Shown one piece after another: positions 2-5,274 of a stretch of DNA of 5,274 nucleotides. The translations under genes were made by a program, and so were the position numbers. The notes under the pieces were generated by a model, which did no database searches, had not been told where the DNA came from, and saw only the letters and a list, made by a program, of their open reading frames with translations. The stretch is from JBDROU01 sp043809745 [NCBI: bacterium]. Its GTDB lineage: Bacteria; Elusimicrobiota; JBDRMW01. Numbering within the stretch: position 1 is the first letter of the stretch; every line of letters starts with the position of its first letter. The stretch covers positions 1-5,274 of the forward strand of contig JBDROU010000045.1 in the NCBI GenBank assembly GCA_043809745.1, in the 5' to 3' direction.

Positions 2-334
2 GGCACAACCAACCCTGAACTCCTAAAAGAAAAAGAACCGGCGGCTTTTTACTATTGCCTCGATGCTCTTCAAAGATTTGATAATAAATCACGAGAAGAA
101 ATTTTTAATATTGTTTCAGAAATCGGCATGCTCGGAACAAAAGGCATAGATTATAGCGACCCTGACAGGACACATCTCTTAAAAAGTATCCCACAGAAAA
201 AATTTACCGGGCTTCATCTTTTGTGCCTGATGTACACAGGCTTCAAGATTATTGAACCTGATCTTGATACAGGGCTTGACTTTGCAGATGCATACAAGAT
301 GGCTCTTGATGTTCATAAATCAAACGTTCATTAA
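2..334 (+). CDS. C-terminal part of an unrecognised protein (5' end outside window)
   Basis: The frame is open from the first complete codon in the window to the TAA at 332-334, giving 110 residues of a longer protein. An internal ATG at 128 has no Shine-Dalgarno sequence before it and the frame runs open upstream, so I read this as a truncated gene, not a 68-residue one. The visible part is soluble-looking and mainly helical: a charged start (LLKEKEPAAFYYCLDALQRF), then a GMLGTKGID stretch, a basic stretch, and a hydrophobic helix LHLLCLMYTGFKII followed by an acidic tail. I see no catalytic motif, membrane anchor or nucleotide-binding site. The stop lies 12 bases before the MazG-like gene on the same strand, which suggests a shared transcript. 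I cannot assign a family. That it is a real gene is supported by the continuous frame and protein-like composition; the function is unknown. Confidence 0.72.
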   Translation, partial: GTTNPELLKEKEPAAFYYCLDALQRFDNKSREEIFNIVSEIGMLGTKGIDYSDPDRTHLLKSIPQKKFTGLHLLCLMYTGFKIIEPDLDTGLDFADAYKMALDVHKSNVH

Positions 335-346: not shown

Positions 347-694
347 ATGCAAAAGCTCATTAAAAAGCTCAGAGAGTTTGCTAAGGAGCGAGACTGGGAT
401 CAGTTCCATTCGCCTAAAAACCTGTCTATGGCGCTCAGCGTCGAAGTAGCGGAGGTTGTTGAACATTTTCAGTGGCTTACTGAAGAGCAAAGCAAAAATC
501 TTTCACCTGATAAACTTAAAAAAATAAAAGAAGAAATCGGAGATGTTTTTATTTATCTGGTCAGGCTTGCAGACAAGTTAGACATAGATCTTTTTGAAGC
601 AGCAGATGAAAAGATTGAAAAAAACAAATTAAAATACCCTGCAGAAACAGTAAGGGGAAAATCATTCAAATATTCGGAGTATAAAAATGACTAA
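347..694 (+). CDS. MazG-like nucleotide pyrophosphohydrolase, dCTP pyrophosphatase (RS21-C6/DCTPP1) type
   Basis: This 115-residue protein would be a cytosolic all-alpha NTP pyrophosphatase that converts a (d)NTP to the monophosphate and pyrophosphate using Mg2+. The MazG-superfamily metal signature is complete: E33-x-x-E36 (EVAE) and E63-x-x-D66 (EIGD). The segment ERDWDQFHSPKNL (residues 14-26), then FQW at 41-43, closely follows the DCTPP1/RS21-C6 pattern as I recall it (ERDWEQFHQPRNL, FQW), and N93 and the KYP-RG ending also fit. The length is normal for a single-domain member, which works as an oligomer. DCTPP1 is known to prefer dCTP and 5-substituted dCTPs; substrate choice here is inferred from similarity. 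The start is supported by GGGAG at 337-341. The stop overlaps the start of the McrB-like gene by 8 bases, so translational coupling is likely. The alternative is a general house-cleaning pyrophosphatase that happens to lie next to a defence operon. Confidence 0.93.
   Translation: MQKLIKKLREFAKERDWDQFHSPKNLSMALSVEVAEVVEHFQWLTEEQSKNLSPDKLKKIKEEIGDVFIYLVRLADKLDIDLFEAADEKIEKNKLKYPAETVRGKSFKYSEYKND
676..679 (+). promoter_or_regulatory. Shine-Dalgarno site for the McrB-like gene, inside the MazG-like gene
   Basis: GGAG lies seven bases before the ATG at 687, within the last codons of the upstream gene. It supports the start at 687, and hence the 8-base gene overlap, over the out-of-frame ATG at 694. 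Confidence 0.65.
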
Positions 695-2372
695 TGTTAA
701 AGTCTATGAAATAGCGCAAAGCGCCACTCCAAATGCTAAAAAATTATTGTTCCCCGATCAAGGCTTTTTTTATTGGAACGACAAAAAATTTAAACAAATG
801 AGTTCAGGTGAAAAAGTCTATTTTATTAATAAATCAGATATGTACTCGTTGTTTACTGAAATAGATATAACAGACATTCAAGCTACTATCGATTCCGATA
901 AGTCTTCTTTTGAGGATGCCGGACAGCAAATTAAGGTGGATAGAGAATTTGAAAGATTTATAAGATTCAAAATAATAGAAAAAAAGGAAATTCCTCAATC
1001 TTGGCGGTGGACAACATTGGGGGCTGCAGAAGCTACAAATTTAAGAAGCAATGGTGAGCAAGGGCAAAGTATAAAAGAAAATAATATTCAAAGAATCAAT
1101 CAGCTTCTGGAAATTTACACTGACCCTTTAACAGAATCCCACATACTTTTAAATGATTGCAAAAACAGACTTCAGCAACTCATTGCCACCACCGAAGGAA
1201 CAGAAGTGAAAGCAACTAACGGAGATTTAATGACAATCCAAAATTACTGCAAGGCGAAAGGTTTTATATTCGAACCTTGGCAGATAGCGACCTATATAAC
1301 CGCTCTTCGCACAAAACCTTTTGTCATTCTGGCGGGTGTTTCAGGTACCGGTAAATCAAAACTTCCAGCGCTTGTGGCGGAGGCCACCGGAGGAAAAGCA
1401 GAGCTTATCCCTGTCCGTCCCGACTGGACCGACAGTTCGGATATTTTAGGTTACTGTGATCTACAGGGTAATTTCCGTCCCGGAAGGTTGCTGGAAATAA
1501 TCAAGGATGCCTATGCCAATAATGATAAGCACTATGTTTGTATTATTGATGAAATGAATCTTGCTCGGGTTGAGCACTATTTTGCCGAAGTGCTCAGTAG
1601 AATTGAAGACCGTAGAGAAGTGGAAGGCGGCGGATTTAAAAGCGGCCCCCTAGTTTCGCAAAAACTGTCAGAAAACGATGCGGAATGGGCACAATATGGA
1701 CTTCCTCCAAATCTGGCTATCGTCGGCACGGTAAACATGGATGAAAGCTCTCATGGATTCAGTCGCAAAGTTCTTGATCGTGCCTTTACTGTTGAACTTT
1801 CCGATATAGATCTTGGAAAATGGGAAGCTGGTAATATGCAACCCGCCGGGAAAATAAATTGGCCGTTAAATAACTGGTATCCACGTGCCATACAGCTTGG
1901 GAAGCTTGAAAAATATTCAGATGAAGAACGGCAAACAACAGAAGAAATCATAGCCAGATTGAAAGATATCAATAATATTCTTGTTCATGCACAGCTTCAG
2001 ATTGGTTACCGCACGCGTGATGAAATTGTTATGTTCGTTCTTCACGCAAAGGAGTTAAGCTCTTCTTTTAAGACCCATGGTGGTAATAATGTTGACCCGT
2101 TTGATCTTGCATTGCAGATGAAGATTTTGCCCCGCATTGTCGGCGGCAGTTCTCCTGTAAGGCGGGTTGTTTATGAGCTTTTAGGTTGGACAACAAATAA
2201 AGGACAGCTCTACCAGAACGAAGAAGATGCCCAATCTTTGCTTAATAAGTGGGATACATCAGGCAGGCCCAGCAGAATTAATGATGATGTCAAATATCCC
2301 TTTACGGCCGCAAGGCTATGTCTGATGCTGGATAGAATAAAGAATGAGGGGTTTACGTCCTTCTGGCTTTAG
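687..2372 (+). CDS. McrB-like AAA+ NTPase, motor subunit of a type IV (McrBC-like) restriction system
   Basis: This 561-residue protein is the likely motor and DNA-recognition subunit working with the nuclease encoded next. The AAA+ core is complete: Walker A GVSGTGKS at 217-224; an IPVRPDW-type segment with the SSDILGY stretch after it; Walker B CIIDEMN ending in D288-E289, with N291 giving the D-E-x-N pattern typical of McrB; a sensor-like GTVNMDESS with N350 and D352; and a likely arginine finger in VLDRAF (R365). The C-terminal lid ends in a typical RLCLMLDRIKNEGFTSFW pattern. The first 190 or so residues lie outside the AAA+ core. They include FFYWND (27-32), a GEKVYFIN stretch (41-48) and PQSWRWTTLG (103-112), and probably form a target-recognition domain, perhaps PUA/EVE-like; that fold is a guess. 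E. coli McrB is 459 residues and uses GTP; whether this one uses GTP or ATP cannot be told. The gene sits 8 bases before the nuclease gene. Confidence 0.93.
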   Translation: MTNVKVYEIAQSATPNAKKLLFPDQGFFYWNDKKFKQMSSGEKVYFINKSDMYSLFTEIDITDIQATIDSDKSSFEDAGQQIKVDREFERFIRFKIIEKKEIPQSWRWTTLGAAEATNLRSNGEQGQSIKENNIQRINQLLEIYTDPLTESHILLNDCKNRLQQLIATTEGTEVKATNGDLMTIQNYCKAKGFIFEPWQIATYITALRTKPFVILAGVSGTGKSKLPALVAEATGGKAELIPVRPDWTDSSDILGYCDLQGNFRPGRLLEIIKDAYANNDKHYVCIIDEMNLARVEHYFAEVLSRIEDRREVEGGGFKSGPLVSQKLSENDAEWAQYGLPPNLAIVGTVNMDESSHGFSRKVLDRAFTVELSDIDLGKWEAGNMQPAGKINWPLNNWYPRAIQLGKLEKYSDEERQTTEEIIARLKDINNILVHAQLQIGYRTRDEIVMFVLHAKELSSSFKTHGGNNVDPFDLALQMKILPRIVGGSSPVRRVVYELLGWTTNKGQLYQNEEDAQSLLNKWDTSGRPSRINDDVKYPFTAARLCLMLDRIKNEGFTSFWL

Positions 2373-2374
2373 AG
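2371..2374 (+). promoter_or_regulatory. Weak ribosome binding site for the McrC-like gene
   Basis: AGAG overlaps the McrB-like stop codon and lies six bases before the ATG at 2381. It is a poor match to the consensus, so the nuclease is probably translated by coupling to the motor gene, which would tie the amounts of the two subunits together. Confidence 0.4.
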
Positions 2375-2380
2375 TAAATT

Positions 2381-4891
2381 ATGGATGACCTGACGCTTTT
2401 TAGAATTGAGACAGATAGGGTTTCTCTATCCTGGAGCAAGTTAAGCTATAAGCAACCCCCCTCTTCAAAATTCATTTCAAATGTCTCCGGCCTATTGAAA
2501 ATCATCCCAAAAAGAAGGGATATAGTATTTTTCCACATAGAACGTTCGGGTACCCCGGTAGTTTTAGCTGACGATCTACAGCGATCCGAAGGGCCACATC
2601 TTTTTGAACAATGCAATTATGATGTATATGCGTCAACTGCAAAGCCTGGCGACAAGGTAAAAATCATTCACAATGATCCCTTGATTACACAAAATCTGCA
2701 CAAGAGAGAAAACAGCAGAACCCACCAGGGCATTATAAATTTCGGTTCACAGATAGGCACAAGCGAATTTTCAGTTTTTGTCAATGGCAAGCCGGAATTT
2801 GATTTTCTTGTCGAGATATTTCCATCCAAGCTTGACTACAAATCAGATTATGATGAGATGATAGCCGAAGTACAGGATGTTCTTACAGGACTCGCTTTTG
2901 AATATCTGCGCTCAACTTTTAAATTGGGAGTTGAGTCCCATGTCCCCCAACCAACACAACTTGAATGGCTGTATCTCTTGAAAAATGTTGCAAACAAACT
3001 TGAAGAGGCATTTCAGCAGATTAATCGACATCCGATACGTGGACTATTGCGGGAACCAACCTTAACAAAAGCCGGTAAAATAAAAAAAATAGATTCAACC
3101 ATAAGATCGGCTGTCAGACGGGGTGCTGGCTCAGGTGATTTGCTGAAGCTTGAAAACGGCCTTAAGGTTCGGCAAATGCTCATCGAACGACGAGCACGCA
3201 CCACCTTAAACACTCCCGAACATCGATGGCTCGCGGCGCAGCTTAATAGAATCTGCCAAAAAATTTCCATTTTAAAACAGCAGGAAGCACTCGAGATAAG
3301 GAGTTTGCGGCGGGATCAGGCTATTAGCGAACTTGGCAAGCTGGAGTGCCGTATGCGGCAGCTAACCAAATATGAATCGATTGCCACTGCTCAGGGTGAT
3401 CCGCCACAAGGATTTACTTCGCTCCAACTGCAGGGAGCACCGGGATATCGTGAAGCTTATCAGAATTGCCTCATTCTGCAATTGGGCCTTCGTATTGAGG
3501 GAGGGCCGCTGCGCCTTTCAGTAAAGGATTTAAATGTACTGTATGAATACTGGTGTTACATTGCACTTTTAAAAATCATAGCAGAGGAAACAGGCCAGCC
3601 AATTTCGGCAAAAAATATTTTCTCTATAAGACAGCAAGGGCTTCGTGTAATGCTGCAAAAAGGACAAACTACAACGGTGGATTTTAAAATGCGAGGAGAT
3701 CGAACAGTAAATGTTGCTTATAATCGCTTTTTTAAAAATGAACCTGTTCTGGTTCCTCAAATGCCTGATATGCTGATTACCTTCCATGATCCTGCCTGGC
3801 CTGATATGCATCTTATAGTTGATGCAAAATACCGCTTAGATTCTTCACAGGAATATTATAATCAATATAAATCTTTTGGTCCGCCCGATGATGCTATTAA
3901 TGTGCTTCATCGTTATCGTGACGCAATTTTAGAGCAACCGAGTATTCAATCGTCAAAGAGAAGTCCCAAAAGAACATCTGTGCAAGCTGCAGCACTGTTT
4001 CCATTGAGTATGGATGAGGGCGATGATTTTACAAACAGCCGACTTTGGATGGCCCTGGATAAAATAGGAATTGGTGCAATACCATTTCTGCCTGGGAATA
4101 CAAAATATCTGAAGAAATGGCTCAGAAAAATGCTACATCAAGGCGGCTGGTCTTTAGCGGAGAGAGCAATTGGGAACGTGTCTGATGAAAAAGCCGAAGA
4201 CTGGCGCAAGGCTGCTTCAGAATCTGTTTTGATAGGCATTCTTCGGAGTAAAGAAAAAGGGTCAGAAGCACGCCATTTGGAATGGATTAAACAAAACAAG
4301 CGTTACTATATTCCGGTACCGGTAAAAGAGTCTCAAAGACGTTTTCATGTGACAAAATGGGTTGCCTTGTATTTGCCTTTGGAAATTCGCAAACCTGGTG
4401 CTGTTGCATATCGGGCGCAAGTTCAAAAGGTAGAAGTAGTACCTCGAAAAAAAATCCACACACGGTGGAAATCAACTCGGGATAAAGATCATCTGCAGTT
4501 TTTGTATTATCTTGAAAATTTTATGGAATTGCCTCAACCTATAATTAATTTCGAAAATGGTATTGGTAAACGATTTTCGGGCCACCGCTGGACATCGCGC
4601 CTCGCTCTGGAAAGAGCAAAGAATTTAACCGAGCTTTTTTTAGAGACAGAGCCTGAATGGTGTCTTTATGAAGATTTAAATGCTGCAGACATAAATTTTA
4701 AGCTTAAACCAGGAATTCCCAAAGTGCTTGATCCAGACGATCCAAAGGGACGCGCACTGTTTGACGTAAATGGCAAGAAAATTCAATATTTGGGATCAGG
4801 CGGTTTTAAGGTAAAGACACCAAACGAAAACCGTTATTTTGCATCGCCATCCGATGTTGTTATATATTTAAAAGGAGAACTGAATATATGA
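2381..4891 (+). CDS. McrC-like DUF2357 / PD-(D/E)XK nuclease, effector subunit of the McrBC-like system
   Basis: This 836-residue protein is the likely DNA-cutting subunit, activated by the AAA+ partner encoded 8 bases upstream. In order: a beta-rich N-terminal part; a DUF2357-like stretch at about 128-180 (a VFVNGK segment, then VEIFPSKLDYKSDYDEM); helices with INRHPIRGLLREP (214-226); a charged helical or coiled-coil region at about 280-335; and the nuclease domain. The nuclease shows E389 in LYEYWCY, P462-D463 in MPDMLI, and D481-A-K483 in IVDAKYR, which together give the PD-(D/E)XK active site. They are followed by the conserved-looking AINVLHRYRDAI and a GIGAIPFLPG stretch. From about residue 641 there is an extra C-terminal part. 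Its first half (WVALYLPLEI, VAYRAQVQKVEVV) looks like a PUA/ASCH-type beta fold. E. coli McrC is about 348 residues, so this protein is more than twice as long, as is usual for the DUF2357 type. All the catalytic residues are present, so I expect it to be active. Confidence 0.9.
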   Translation: MDDLTLFRIETDRVSLSWSKLSYKQPPSSKFISNVSGLLKIIPKRRDIVFFHIERSGTPVVLADDLQRSEGPHLFEQCNYDVYASTAKPGDKVKIIHNDPLITQNLHKRENSRTHQGIINFGSQIGTSEFSVFVNGKPEFDFLVEIFPSKLDYKSDYDEMIAEVQDVLTGLAFEYLRSTFKLGVESHVPQPTQLEWLYLLKNVANKLEEAFQQINRHPIRGLLREPTLTKAGKIKKIDSTIRSAVRRGAGSGDLLKLENGLKVRQMLIERRARTTLNTPEHRWLAAQLNRICQKISILKQQEALEIRSLRRDQAISELGKLECRMRQLTKYESIATAQGDPPQGFTSLQLQGAPGYREAYQNCLILQLGLRIEGGPLRLSVKDLNVLYEYWCYIALLKIIAEETGQPISAKNIFSIRQQGLRVMLQKGQTTTVDFKMRGDRTVNVAYNRFFKNEPVLVPQMPDMLITFHDPAWPDMHLIVDAKYRLDSSQEYYNQYKSFGPPDDAINVLHRYRDAILEQPSIQSSKRSPKRTSVQAAALFPLSMDEGDDFTNSRLWMALDKIGIGAIPFLPGNTKYLKKWLRKMLHQGGWSLAERAIGNVSDEKAEDWRKAASESVLIGILRSKEKGSEARHLEWIKQNKRYYIPVPVKESQRRFHVTKWVALYLPLEIRKPGAVAYRAQVQKVEVVPRKKIHTRWKSTRDKDHLQFLYYLENFMELPQPIINFENGIGKRFSGHRWTSRLALERAKNLTELFLETEPEWCLYEDLNAADINFKLKPGIPKVLDPDDPKGRALFDVNGKKIQYLGSGGFKVKTPNENRYFASPSDVVIYLKGELNI
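4871..4877 (+). promoter_or_regulatory. Strong Shine-Dalgarno site at the end of the McrC-like gene
   Basis: AAAGGAG lies ten bases before an ATG at 4888 that overlaps the nuclease stop codon (ATGA). This is the best ribosome binding site in the window, yet the frame it serves is only seven codons long. Confidence 0.5.
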
Positions 4892-4911
4892 ATGTAAGGA
4901 TCCATAAATAA
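4888..4911 (+). other. Seven-codon ORF coupled to the mcrC stop; possible remnant of a lost downstream gene
   Basis: ATGAATGTAAGG starts on the last base before the TGA of the nuclease gene and ends at TAA 4909-4911, encoding MNVRIHK. The ATGA overlap together with AAAGGAG at 4871-4877 is what one expects at the junction to a fourth, translationally coupled gene. No other frame continues it for any useful distance. It may be the start of a gene whose body was deleted or replaced, a tiny translated ORF, or chance. I favour a remnant, with low confidence. Confidence 0.3.
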
Positions 4912-4960
4912 GTAAATAACTATCTTTAAAGCATGGGAAGACTTATACATTTTTACTGGA

Positions 4961-5000
4961 CGTTCGAACAGAACGCAGCTTATTCCCTTTCGATTTTTTT
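4961..5000 (+). terminator. Weak candidate transcription terminator after the operon
   Basis: CGTTC (4961-4965) can pair with GAACG (4971-4975) across a five-base loop, and a T7 run follows at 4994-5000. The stem is only five base pairs and the T run begins 18 bases after it, so this does not fit a standard intrinsic terminator well. It is listed because nothing better lies close behind the operon. Confidence 0.2.
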
Positions 5001-5026
5001 CTTAGAAAAATACCTGCACCACCCCA

Positions 5027-5055
5027 ATTGGAGGTCGCAAATTGCGACCTCCAAT
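5027..5055. repeat. Perfect 14-bp inverted repeat with a one-base centre
   Basis: ATTGGAGGTCGCAA (5027-5040) and its exact reverse complement TTGCGACCTCCAAT (5042-5055) flank a single A at 5041. As single-stranded DNA or RNA it would form a strong hairpin, with the central AAA or AAATT as the loop. No T run follows on either strand, so a simple terminator is unlikely. A REP-like mobile palindrome or a binding site for a dimeric protein fits better. The dyad is seen directly; its role is inference. Confidence 0.85.
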
Positions 5056-5079
5056 CTTCAAACTCCGTTTTAGGCATTC

Positions 5080-5099
5080 AAAGGGGGACAAAGGGAGAC
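5080..5099 (+). repeat. Two tandem 10-bp G-rich units
   Basis: AAAGGGGGAC (5080-5089) is followed directly by AAAGGGAGAC (5090-5099), which differs at one base, then by GGGG (5100-5103). With only two copies this is a small repeat. It lies 24 bases after the inverted repeat and is part of the same G-rich, non-coding stretch. Confidence 0.6.
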
Positions 5100-5274
5100 G
5101 GGGTTGAATTTAGGCGTTTCTTTTTTAAATGAGGGGGGGCAGGTTAGTTAGATTGTAAAAGATATTTGGGTAACAGGGATACGGCGTAAAGCGGCAGATT
5201 ACATATTTTACCATCCTTTTTGAAGTTAAGCAGATTTGTCCGCGCAAGCAAGGGCGGTTTGAACTGTAAATCAT

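Follow-up and report, generated by a model that had tools for sequence, protein, structure and literature searches.

The DNA analysed here (the window) is a 5,274-nucleotide stretch, positions 1 to 5,274 of contig JBDROU010000045.1 from a bacterium of the Elusimicrobiota. It carries on its forward strand a gene for a MazG-like nucleotide pyrophosphohydrolase, followed by genes for a McrB-like GTPase and a McrC-like nuclease protein (Table 1). The operon is real and unusual. Rereading of the window bears out the frames and coordinates given in an earlier note on this DNA, together with the 8-base overlap of the MazG-like and McrB-like genes, which is of the co-translation type; a gap of 8 bases separates the McrB-like from the McrC-like gene. 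The same note had proposed a special bond between MazG and McrBC, which is not conserved. MazG is a promiscuous neighbour of defence genes and its exact pairing with McrBC is rare; a wider bond between DCTPP1-like MazG proteins and defence-type nucleases and helicases recurs, and the idea that such a MazG sanitises the nucleotide pool is worth testing. Our preferred reading, which we hold tentatively and with less than even confidence, is that the operon encodes a McrBC variant that depends on DNA modification, together with a guard of the nucleotide pool.

The MazG-like protein matches the Pfam families MazG-like and MazG at E values of 1.2e-13 and 1.1e-6, respectively, and its closest solved structures are those of RS21-C6/DCTPP1 (E 6.6e-23, residues 9-111). 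Residues E33, E36, E63, D66, W17, H21, W43 and Y70 are all found, which confirms the DCTPP1-type signature described earlier. Both marks of an all-alpha nucleoside triphosphate pyrophosphohydrolase, the ExxE...ExxD pattern and a close sequence match to DCTPP1/RS21-C6, are present, and the catalytic acidic residues are the same as in these enzymes. Unlike RS21-C6/DCTPP1, the window protein is bacterial, 115 residues long and encoded in a defence operon. The base pocket of RS21-C6 is presumably made up of His38, Trp47, Trp73 and Tyr102; in this comparison the window protein has W17, W43 and Y70, and Leu8 in the place of His38. The catalytic residues and the tryptophans hardly vary across the 86 MazG rows of the tree described below, whatever their context, so these positions do not mark out a McrBC-linked MazG.

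Scanning of genome contigs with the window McrB and the McrB of M. abscessus gave 82 relatives, 80 of which were kept. The 30 nearest McrB loci are L010-L035, L042, L070, L071 and L083, and 27 of them have at least 400 bases of flank upstream of the McrB frame (L013, L024 and L026 were left out). MazG lies immediately upstream of McrB in only one of these 27, that of Chitinophaga rupis (L035), where the MazG/McrB and McrB/McrC overlaps are 4 bases each. At L015 (Ectothiorhodospiraceae), MazG is found about 4 kb from McrB on the opposite strand, between a methyltransferase-HNH gene and a gene for a Schlafen-group-3 (SLFNg3) helicase. Viral contigs gave no relative of the window McrB, McrC or McrB N-terminus, phage records gave two McrB matches, and nothing in E. 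coli genomes matched window positions 2000-5274.

The neighbourhoods of MazG itself were scanned to a distance of about 9 kb in both directions, or to the contig end where that came first, with profiles built from few collected proteins. Loci that built a profile match it by construction, and the Bacteroidota and Pseudomonadota genome sets were each assembled around a genome that had been picked through its McrB. Across 395 Bacteroidota genomes, the search with the window MazG left 29 strong matches, spread over 27 genomes, once those with E >1e-5 had been removed; DUF2357 has 27 matches in 26 genomes. MazG adjoins one of these 27 DUF2357 genes, in Chitinophaga, the centre genome found via McrB. 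Of the 29 MazG loci, 17 have an SLFNg3 helicase as partner, five an HNH protein that is presumably an EVE-HNH enzyme, one McrBC, and six none of these. A helicase as the commonest partner had not been anticipated in the earlier note. The helicase gene is directly downstream of MazG at 16 of the 17 loci, seven of them with a 4-base overlap, and is separated from it by one gene at L148; a plain tblastn search with only two plasmid SLFNg3 proteins returned the same 17 loci. HNH proteins are present near MazG at L122, L123 (in pieces), L125, L136 and L138, of which L122, L125 and L138 built the HNH profile. The genes of this type at L122 (9327-10295) and L123 (7314-8243) stand beside MazG, and the L123 copy looks broken. 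A PF10117-type McrC is encoded in three of the 27 MazG-carrying Bacteroidota genomes; in genome G099 some 11 kb separate it from MazG, with both on one strand, and it falls outside the scanned stretch.

A search of 299 Pseudomonadota genomes at a cut-off of E <=1e-12 gave 48 MazG matches in 47 genomes. An SLFNg3 helicase is near nine of them (a fragment at L230), and 39 match no other profile. McrBC is near one of the 48, at L015 in the centre genome, a locus already counted among the nine. Once the two McrB-chosen centre genomes are left out, McrBC is found within about 9 kb of none of the 75 surveyed MazG loci. Conserved adjacency of MazG and McrB as a general rule, which the earlier note had proposed to check in the neighbourhoods of homologues, is thus rejected over 80 McrB loci, 395 Bacteroidota and 299 Pseudomonadota genomes. 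The pair of MazG and SLFNg3 helicase is a common touching or overlapping gene pair (L126-L143, L185, L205, L209, L214 and L217). The helicases fall into classes, one with a GIY-YIG N-terminus (Pfam, L003) and another resembling AbiO/Nhi (PADLOC).

A tree of MazG was built from 86 rows and 112 columns, with many forks unresolved; L157 and L231 were left out as too short. The window MazG groups with L185, the most similar protein found (67% identity), and with L015 at a support of 96/78, which is below the firm-fork mark of the tool. Both are linked to SLFNg3 helicases, in pairs whose genes often touch or overlap, and in the window McrBC takes the downstream place instead; two of the next nearest rows (L194 and L200) have no partner. 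The three McrBC-linked MazG proteins need three separate changes of context, of which firm (starred) forks force two. From these sequences, the linkage of MazG to McrBC looks like repeated separate events. The link in the window looks like a separate one because its MazG groups, though not firmly, with helicase-linked rows, and this MazG is perhaps derived from helicase-linked stock.

These results raise the possibility that MazG is a general companion of defence islands or a housekeeping passenger with no functional tie to McrBC, and that the gene overlap simply reflects a compact operon in which the downstream gene had been exchanged. The unstarred grouping with L185 and L015, the separate changes of context and the absence of McrBC from the 75 loci all point this way, and relatives of the protein encoded upstream of MazG in the window also occur next to BREX and type III genes (see below). 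However, the context labels cluster on the tree much more than in shuffled sets, with 14 changes against a shuffled mean of 30.4 and none of 200 shuffles as low, and touching or overlapping gene pairs recur. Because of this clustering and recurrence MazG seems to be selected in defence company, and we regard the companion explanation as plausible but doubtful.

Depletion of nucleotides by dCTP deaminases and dGTPases is a feature of known defence systems. It is conceivable that MazG is likewise an offensive second layer which depletes dCTP or other deoxynucleoside triphosphates (dNTPs) once infection has been sensed and so starves phage replication. MazG genes abut or overlap genes on their downstream side that belong to several defence-type kinds, among which helicases are the most frequent, and enzymes of the DCTPP1 type act on dCTP (structure match and family knowledge). 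A passage of PMC13092281 also names MazG as a predicted, unvalidated defence domain. However, Pfam finds no further domain in the 115-residue protein, and copies of the same family without such neighbours are common (39 of 48 Pseudomonadota loci match no other profile). Because such copies are common, housecleaning fits better than a toxic effector, and we consider depletion unlikely.

The reading as a modification-dependent McrBC with a pool guard leans on the McrC-like protein, which has a DUF2357 domain (7.7e-51) and a PDDEXK_7 nuclease domain (1.2e-40) in Pfam, with the nuclease residues P462-D463 and D481-A-K483 intact. An AlphaFold2 model of McrC from an 18-sequence alignment has a mean predicted local distance difference test score (pLDDT) of 82.5. 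Fold alignment with VIA-align 2, in which the whole 836-residue model was the query, matches residues 604-748 to MJECL36 (2p5d) with Z 9.1 and a root-mean-square deviation of 3.9 over 125 aligned residues. Further matches are PH1033 (1wmm, Z 8.3), Zymomonas ASCH (ZmASCH, 5y6c, 8.0) and VcaM4I (6yex, 8.0), followed by YTH domains at Z of about 7 (YTHDC1 7.6) and by S. marinus McrB, through its N-terminal domain, at 6.7. Foldseek alone gave no match with E <0.02 for residues 604-748. In the model, the C-terminus of McrC is of the EVE/ASCH/YTH type, which is a statement of fold only. VcaM4I is described in PMC7897488 as an EVE-HNH enzyme that senses 5-methylcytosine and 5-hydroxymethylcytosine. 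EVE-HNH enzymes such as VcaM4I and EVE-McrB fusions (described in PMC7641849 and PMC7897488) resemble the window in having an EVE-type fold on a nuclease system; in the window, unlike in these, the domain is at the C-terminus of McrC and not on McrB or an HNH protein.

The McrB-like protein matches AAA_5 in Pfam (2.3e-8) and E. coli McrB structures (6.2e-7), and has Walker A, Walker B and N350-M-D352-E, an NxD variant of the GTPase signature. Because it matches the PADLOC candidate model PDC-M26A at 7.4e-47, such a McrB is already listed as a defence candidate; in contrast, the window MazG and McrC match no PADLOC model. With an AAA+ GTPase carrying the Walker motifs and Nx(x)D, and a McrC with DUF2357 and an intact PD-(D/E)xK domain, the pair has the features of a type IV McrBC in its NxD variant. 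The gene order of McrB followed by McrC and these McrC domains are as in E. coli K-12 McrBC. Unlike the K-12 system, the window has NxD rather than NxxD, an additional EVE-like domain on McrC and a MazG gene overlapping mcrB, and its McrB gives no Pfam match to the DUF3578 reader, which we take to be the same as MrcB_N. The earlier comparison with classical McrBC therefore fails for this GTPase. Residues 1-185 of McrB could not be identified by Pfam or by tblastn in plasmids, phages and viral contigs; no homologous N-terminus was found among those of its relatives, and pLDDT of an AlphaFold2 model is mostly below 50 in this part. An apparent resemblance to the 'WWVNQG' domain of L071, L018 and L014 was rejected, as 382 of 1711 scored shuffles reached the same level.

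PMC11090510 assigns NxD GTPases to a branch of their own that includes CoCoNuTs, CoCoPALMs and systems linked to methyltransferases. CoCoNuTs have a McrB with a fused long coiled-coil and a McrC nuclease that is often inactive or missing. The window McrB has the NxD GTPase, and the nuclease residues of its McrC are intact. The elaborate McrC fusions reported for the NxD clade in that source are comparable to the window, with its NxD followed by E and its extra McrC domain; unlike the methyltransferase-linked members, the window holds no methyltransferase, and it shows only 346 bases before MazG. In the main texts of PMC11090510 and PMC7641849 MazG is not mentioned. Searches of the open-licence literature found, among the listings and passages covered, no paper on MazG paired with McrBC, a Schlafen helicase, EVE or type IV restriction; this coverage does not extend to the text of several listed papers, one of which, PMC10783111, is the only one where MazG, McrBC and defense occur together.

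The NxD branch also raises the possibility of a different target. McrBC might sense another modification, for example N6-methyladenine or modified RNA, with MazG removing the matching non-cytosine nucleotide. YTH domains among the modelled fold matches of the McrC C-terminus are compatible with this, as are the CoCoNuTs, for which passages of PMC11090510 predict RNA targeting. However, some of the nearest McrB relatives carry MrcB_N-like readers and the window MazG is nearest to the cytosine-acting DCTPP1, so that a non-cytosine target appears very improbable.

Nine of the 30 nearest McrB loci, a set that includes that of the query, have an MrcB_N-like stretch. Four DNA-methyltransferase queries (tblastn) matched L029, L031, L032 and L033, all of which are without the McrC C-terminal domain, and matched none of the 15 loci that have this domain; 12 further loci, several of them cut short, have neither. 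Such a split would fit if the loci with the domain encode modification-dependent cutters and those with a methyltransferase encode restriction-modification systems; as several of the loci are short contigs, it is no more than suggestive. L029, L031, L032, L033 and L001 form a sister McrBC group with a linked DNA methyltransferase and no McrC C-terminal domain, which is probably of the restriction-modification type rather than type IV. A PDDEXK_13 gene is near McrBC in two loci of this group (L001 and L029).

The HNH neighbours of MazG provide a further connection. The C-terminal part of the L122 HNH protein resembles VcaM4I (E 0.0016). A 13-sequence comparison shows homology (E 7e-14) between its N-terminal domain and that of the McrB linked to MazG in Chitinophaga; the window McrB N-terminus shows no such likeness. 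The N-terminus of the L125 HNH protein gives E 0.069 only against PH1033. Because the L122 HNH protein and the Chitinophaga McrB share an N-terminal domain, which is the best direct sign, MazG may follow the kind of DNA reader and not the kind of nuclease.

Plasmids offer additional arrangements, although the Hymenobacter, L003 and Thauera cases came from biased searches. A row on an L. plantarum plasmid (L003, 8674-19097) encodes a NUDIX protein, a PLD-helicase-DUF3427 protein, MazG, a GIY-YIG/SLFNg3 helicase, an unknown protein, McrB and McrC, which places two different nucleotide pyrophosphohydrolases, NUDIX and MazG, in one row. The NUDIX protein falls below every equivalog cut-off as regards a MutT or Orf135 type. 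We take the PLD-helicase-DUF3427 combination to be the make-up of SauUSI. A search of plasmids with the DUF3427 helicase found seven of 388 records covering 80%, and no pyrophosphohydrolase is annotated in the one such neighbourhood inspected. MutT homologues beside SauUSI homologues are described in a section of PMC7641849. The Hymenobacter canadensis plasmid encodes a protein with tetratricopeptide repeats (TPR) and an HExxH motif, MazG (8-base overlap), a hypothetical protein, McrB of the NxxD type and a PF10117 McrC, and two SLFNg3 helicases lie further upstream.

The operon could then work as follows. The EVE-like domain of McrC, perhaps together with the N-terminal part of McrB, would sense a modified base in invading DNA, McrC would activate the McrB ring, and the PD-(D/E)xK domain would cut the DNA. 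Degradation of modified or methylated DNA would release modified deoxynucleotides, which kinases could convert to 5-methyl-dCTP or 5-hydroxymethyl-dCTP. MazG would hydrolyse these to the monophosphate, so that the modified base is not built into host DNA during replication and this DNA is spared by the nuclease that the operon itself encodes. In this scheme MazG would protect the cell at the level of the nucleotide pool; it would stand outside the cutting machinery and could be exchanged from one nuclease to another. DCTPP1/RS21-C6 as the best solved relatives, VcaM4I among the fold matches of McrC, the split between methyltransferase and C-terminal domain, and the L003 row of NUDIX and MazG are consistent with this guard. 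The MrcB_N-like stretches (9/30) and HNH neighbours (5/29) also speak for it; together with the EVE-type McrC fold, they uphold in a wider sense the link to modification-dependent restriction that the earlier note had drawn through classical McrBC, the part that does not stand.

Several points weigh against such a guard. Most McrBC systems of the window's lineage have no MazG nearby, and a MazG guard is therefore not generally needed. The commonest partner of MazG is the SLFNg3 helicase (17/29 and 9/48), and nothing in our data links this helicase to the sensing of modified DNA. L015, counted among the 15 loci without a methyltransferase match, carries a methyltransferase-HNH gene on the opposite strand. 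In the window, Leu occupies the place of RS21-C6 His38, presumably a pocket residue, and 82 of the 86 rows have L, I or V there. EVE-type folds also read adenine or RNA modifications (YTH is among the fold matches). Finally, enzymes of the MazG family hydrolyse other altered dNTPs as well, according to PMC10742078.

A broader proposal is that DCTPP1-like MazG is an exchangeable 'pool immunity' module of modification-dependent nucleases that moves between EVE-HNH proteins, SLFNg3 helicases and McrBC; this we consider rather unlikely. If it were true, modified dNTPs would be held down and the cell could keep a nuclease that cuts modified DNA, and the MazG-paired SLFNg3 helicases would be predicted to act on modified DNA too. 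We know of no protective methyltransferase for type IV enzymes. How carriers of type IV systems avoid cutting themselves when modified nucleotides enter the pool is a testable question, to which a co-encoded pyrophosphohydrolase is a possible answer, and our survey yields a concrete list of MazG loci with three different kinds of partner.

Table 1. Features of the window, with positions counted from its first nucleotide.
Feature	Position	Strand	Basis
TPR/HExxH-peptidase-like protein, C-terminal 110 residues, cut by window start	2..334	+	Similarity of relatives
MazG-like / DCTPP1-like nucleotide pyrophosphohydrolase, 115 aa	347..694	+	Pfam, solved structures, residue alignment
McrB-like AAA+ GTPase, 561 aa	687..2372	+	Pfam, structure matches, PADLOC PDC-M26A
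McrB N-terminal part, residues 1-185, no relative or fold found	687..1241	+	Sequence and model comparisons
Walker A GVSGTGKS, McrB residues 217-224	1335..1358	+	Residue check
NxD signature N350-M-D352 of McrB	1734..1742	+	Residue check; motif meaning from a section of PMC11090510
McrC-like protein, 836 aa	2381..4891	+	Pfam, structure matches
DUF2357 domain, McrC residues 117-363	2729..3469	+	Pfam
PD-(D/E)xK nuclease domain, McrC residues 387-543, D463/D481/K483	3539..4009	+	Pfam, residue check
Predicted EVE/ASCH/YTH-like domain, McrC C-terminus, residues 604-748	4190..4624	+	AlphaFold2 model and fold alignment

The operon probably begins outside the window, because the upstream reading frame, to which the earlier note does not refer, is open to the window start and stops 12 bases before MazG. 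Over 93 residues, this cut frame shares 51% identity with the final part of the TPR protein on the Hymenobacter plasmid. Its full-length relatives contain TPRs, and HExxH is present in all five that were looked at. When the whole TPR protein (A5) was searched against 398 Pseudomonadota genomes, the results were swamped by ordinary TPR repeats, and only L158 and L159, which are C-terminal matches, were used. The Bacteroidota were therefore surveyed with the C-terminal domain alone, which gave 25 matches in 20 of the 395 genomes; 22 of these loci were viewed and three were not. The domain adjoins MazG in two of the 22 (L128 and L148), both followed by an SLFNg3 helicase, and a McrB profile match is near it in none of the 22. 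Five other loci were read gene by gene, and in three of them the neighbours are BREX genes at L250, a type III methyltransferase at L247 and a DISARM/BREX-like helicase at L248. The protein is directly before brxA-brxB-brxC at L250 (7360-14074), and at L247 (7330-11264) it is followed by one short gene and then the type III methyltransferase, both in Bacteroidota. On the Thauera plasmid the C-terminal domain lies about 4 kb after a McrBC pair, in a stretch where no MazG was found. The TPR/HExxH protein seems to be another exchangeable defence accessory, shared by several systems.

At the other end of the operon, a perfect inverted repeat with 14-base arms and a 1-base spacer is located at positions 5027-5055, 135 bases 3' of mcrC. 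A mobile palindrome is one possible explanation, a terminator that lacks a T-run another.

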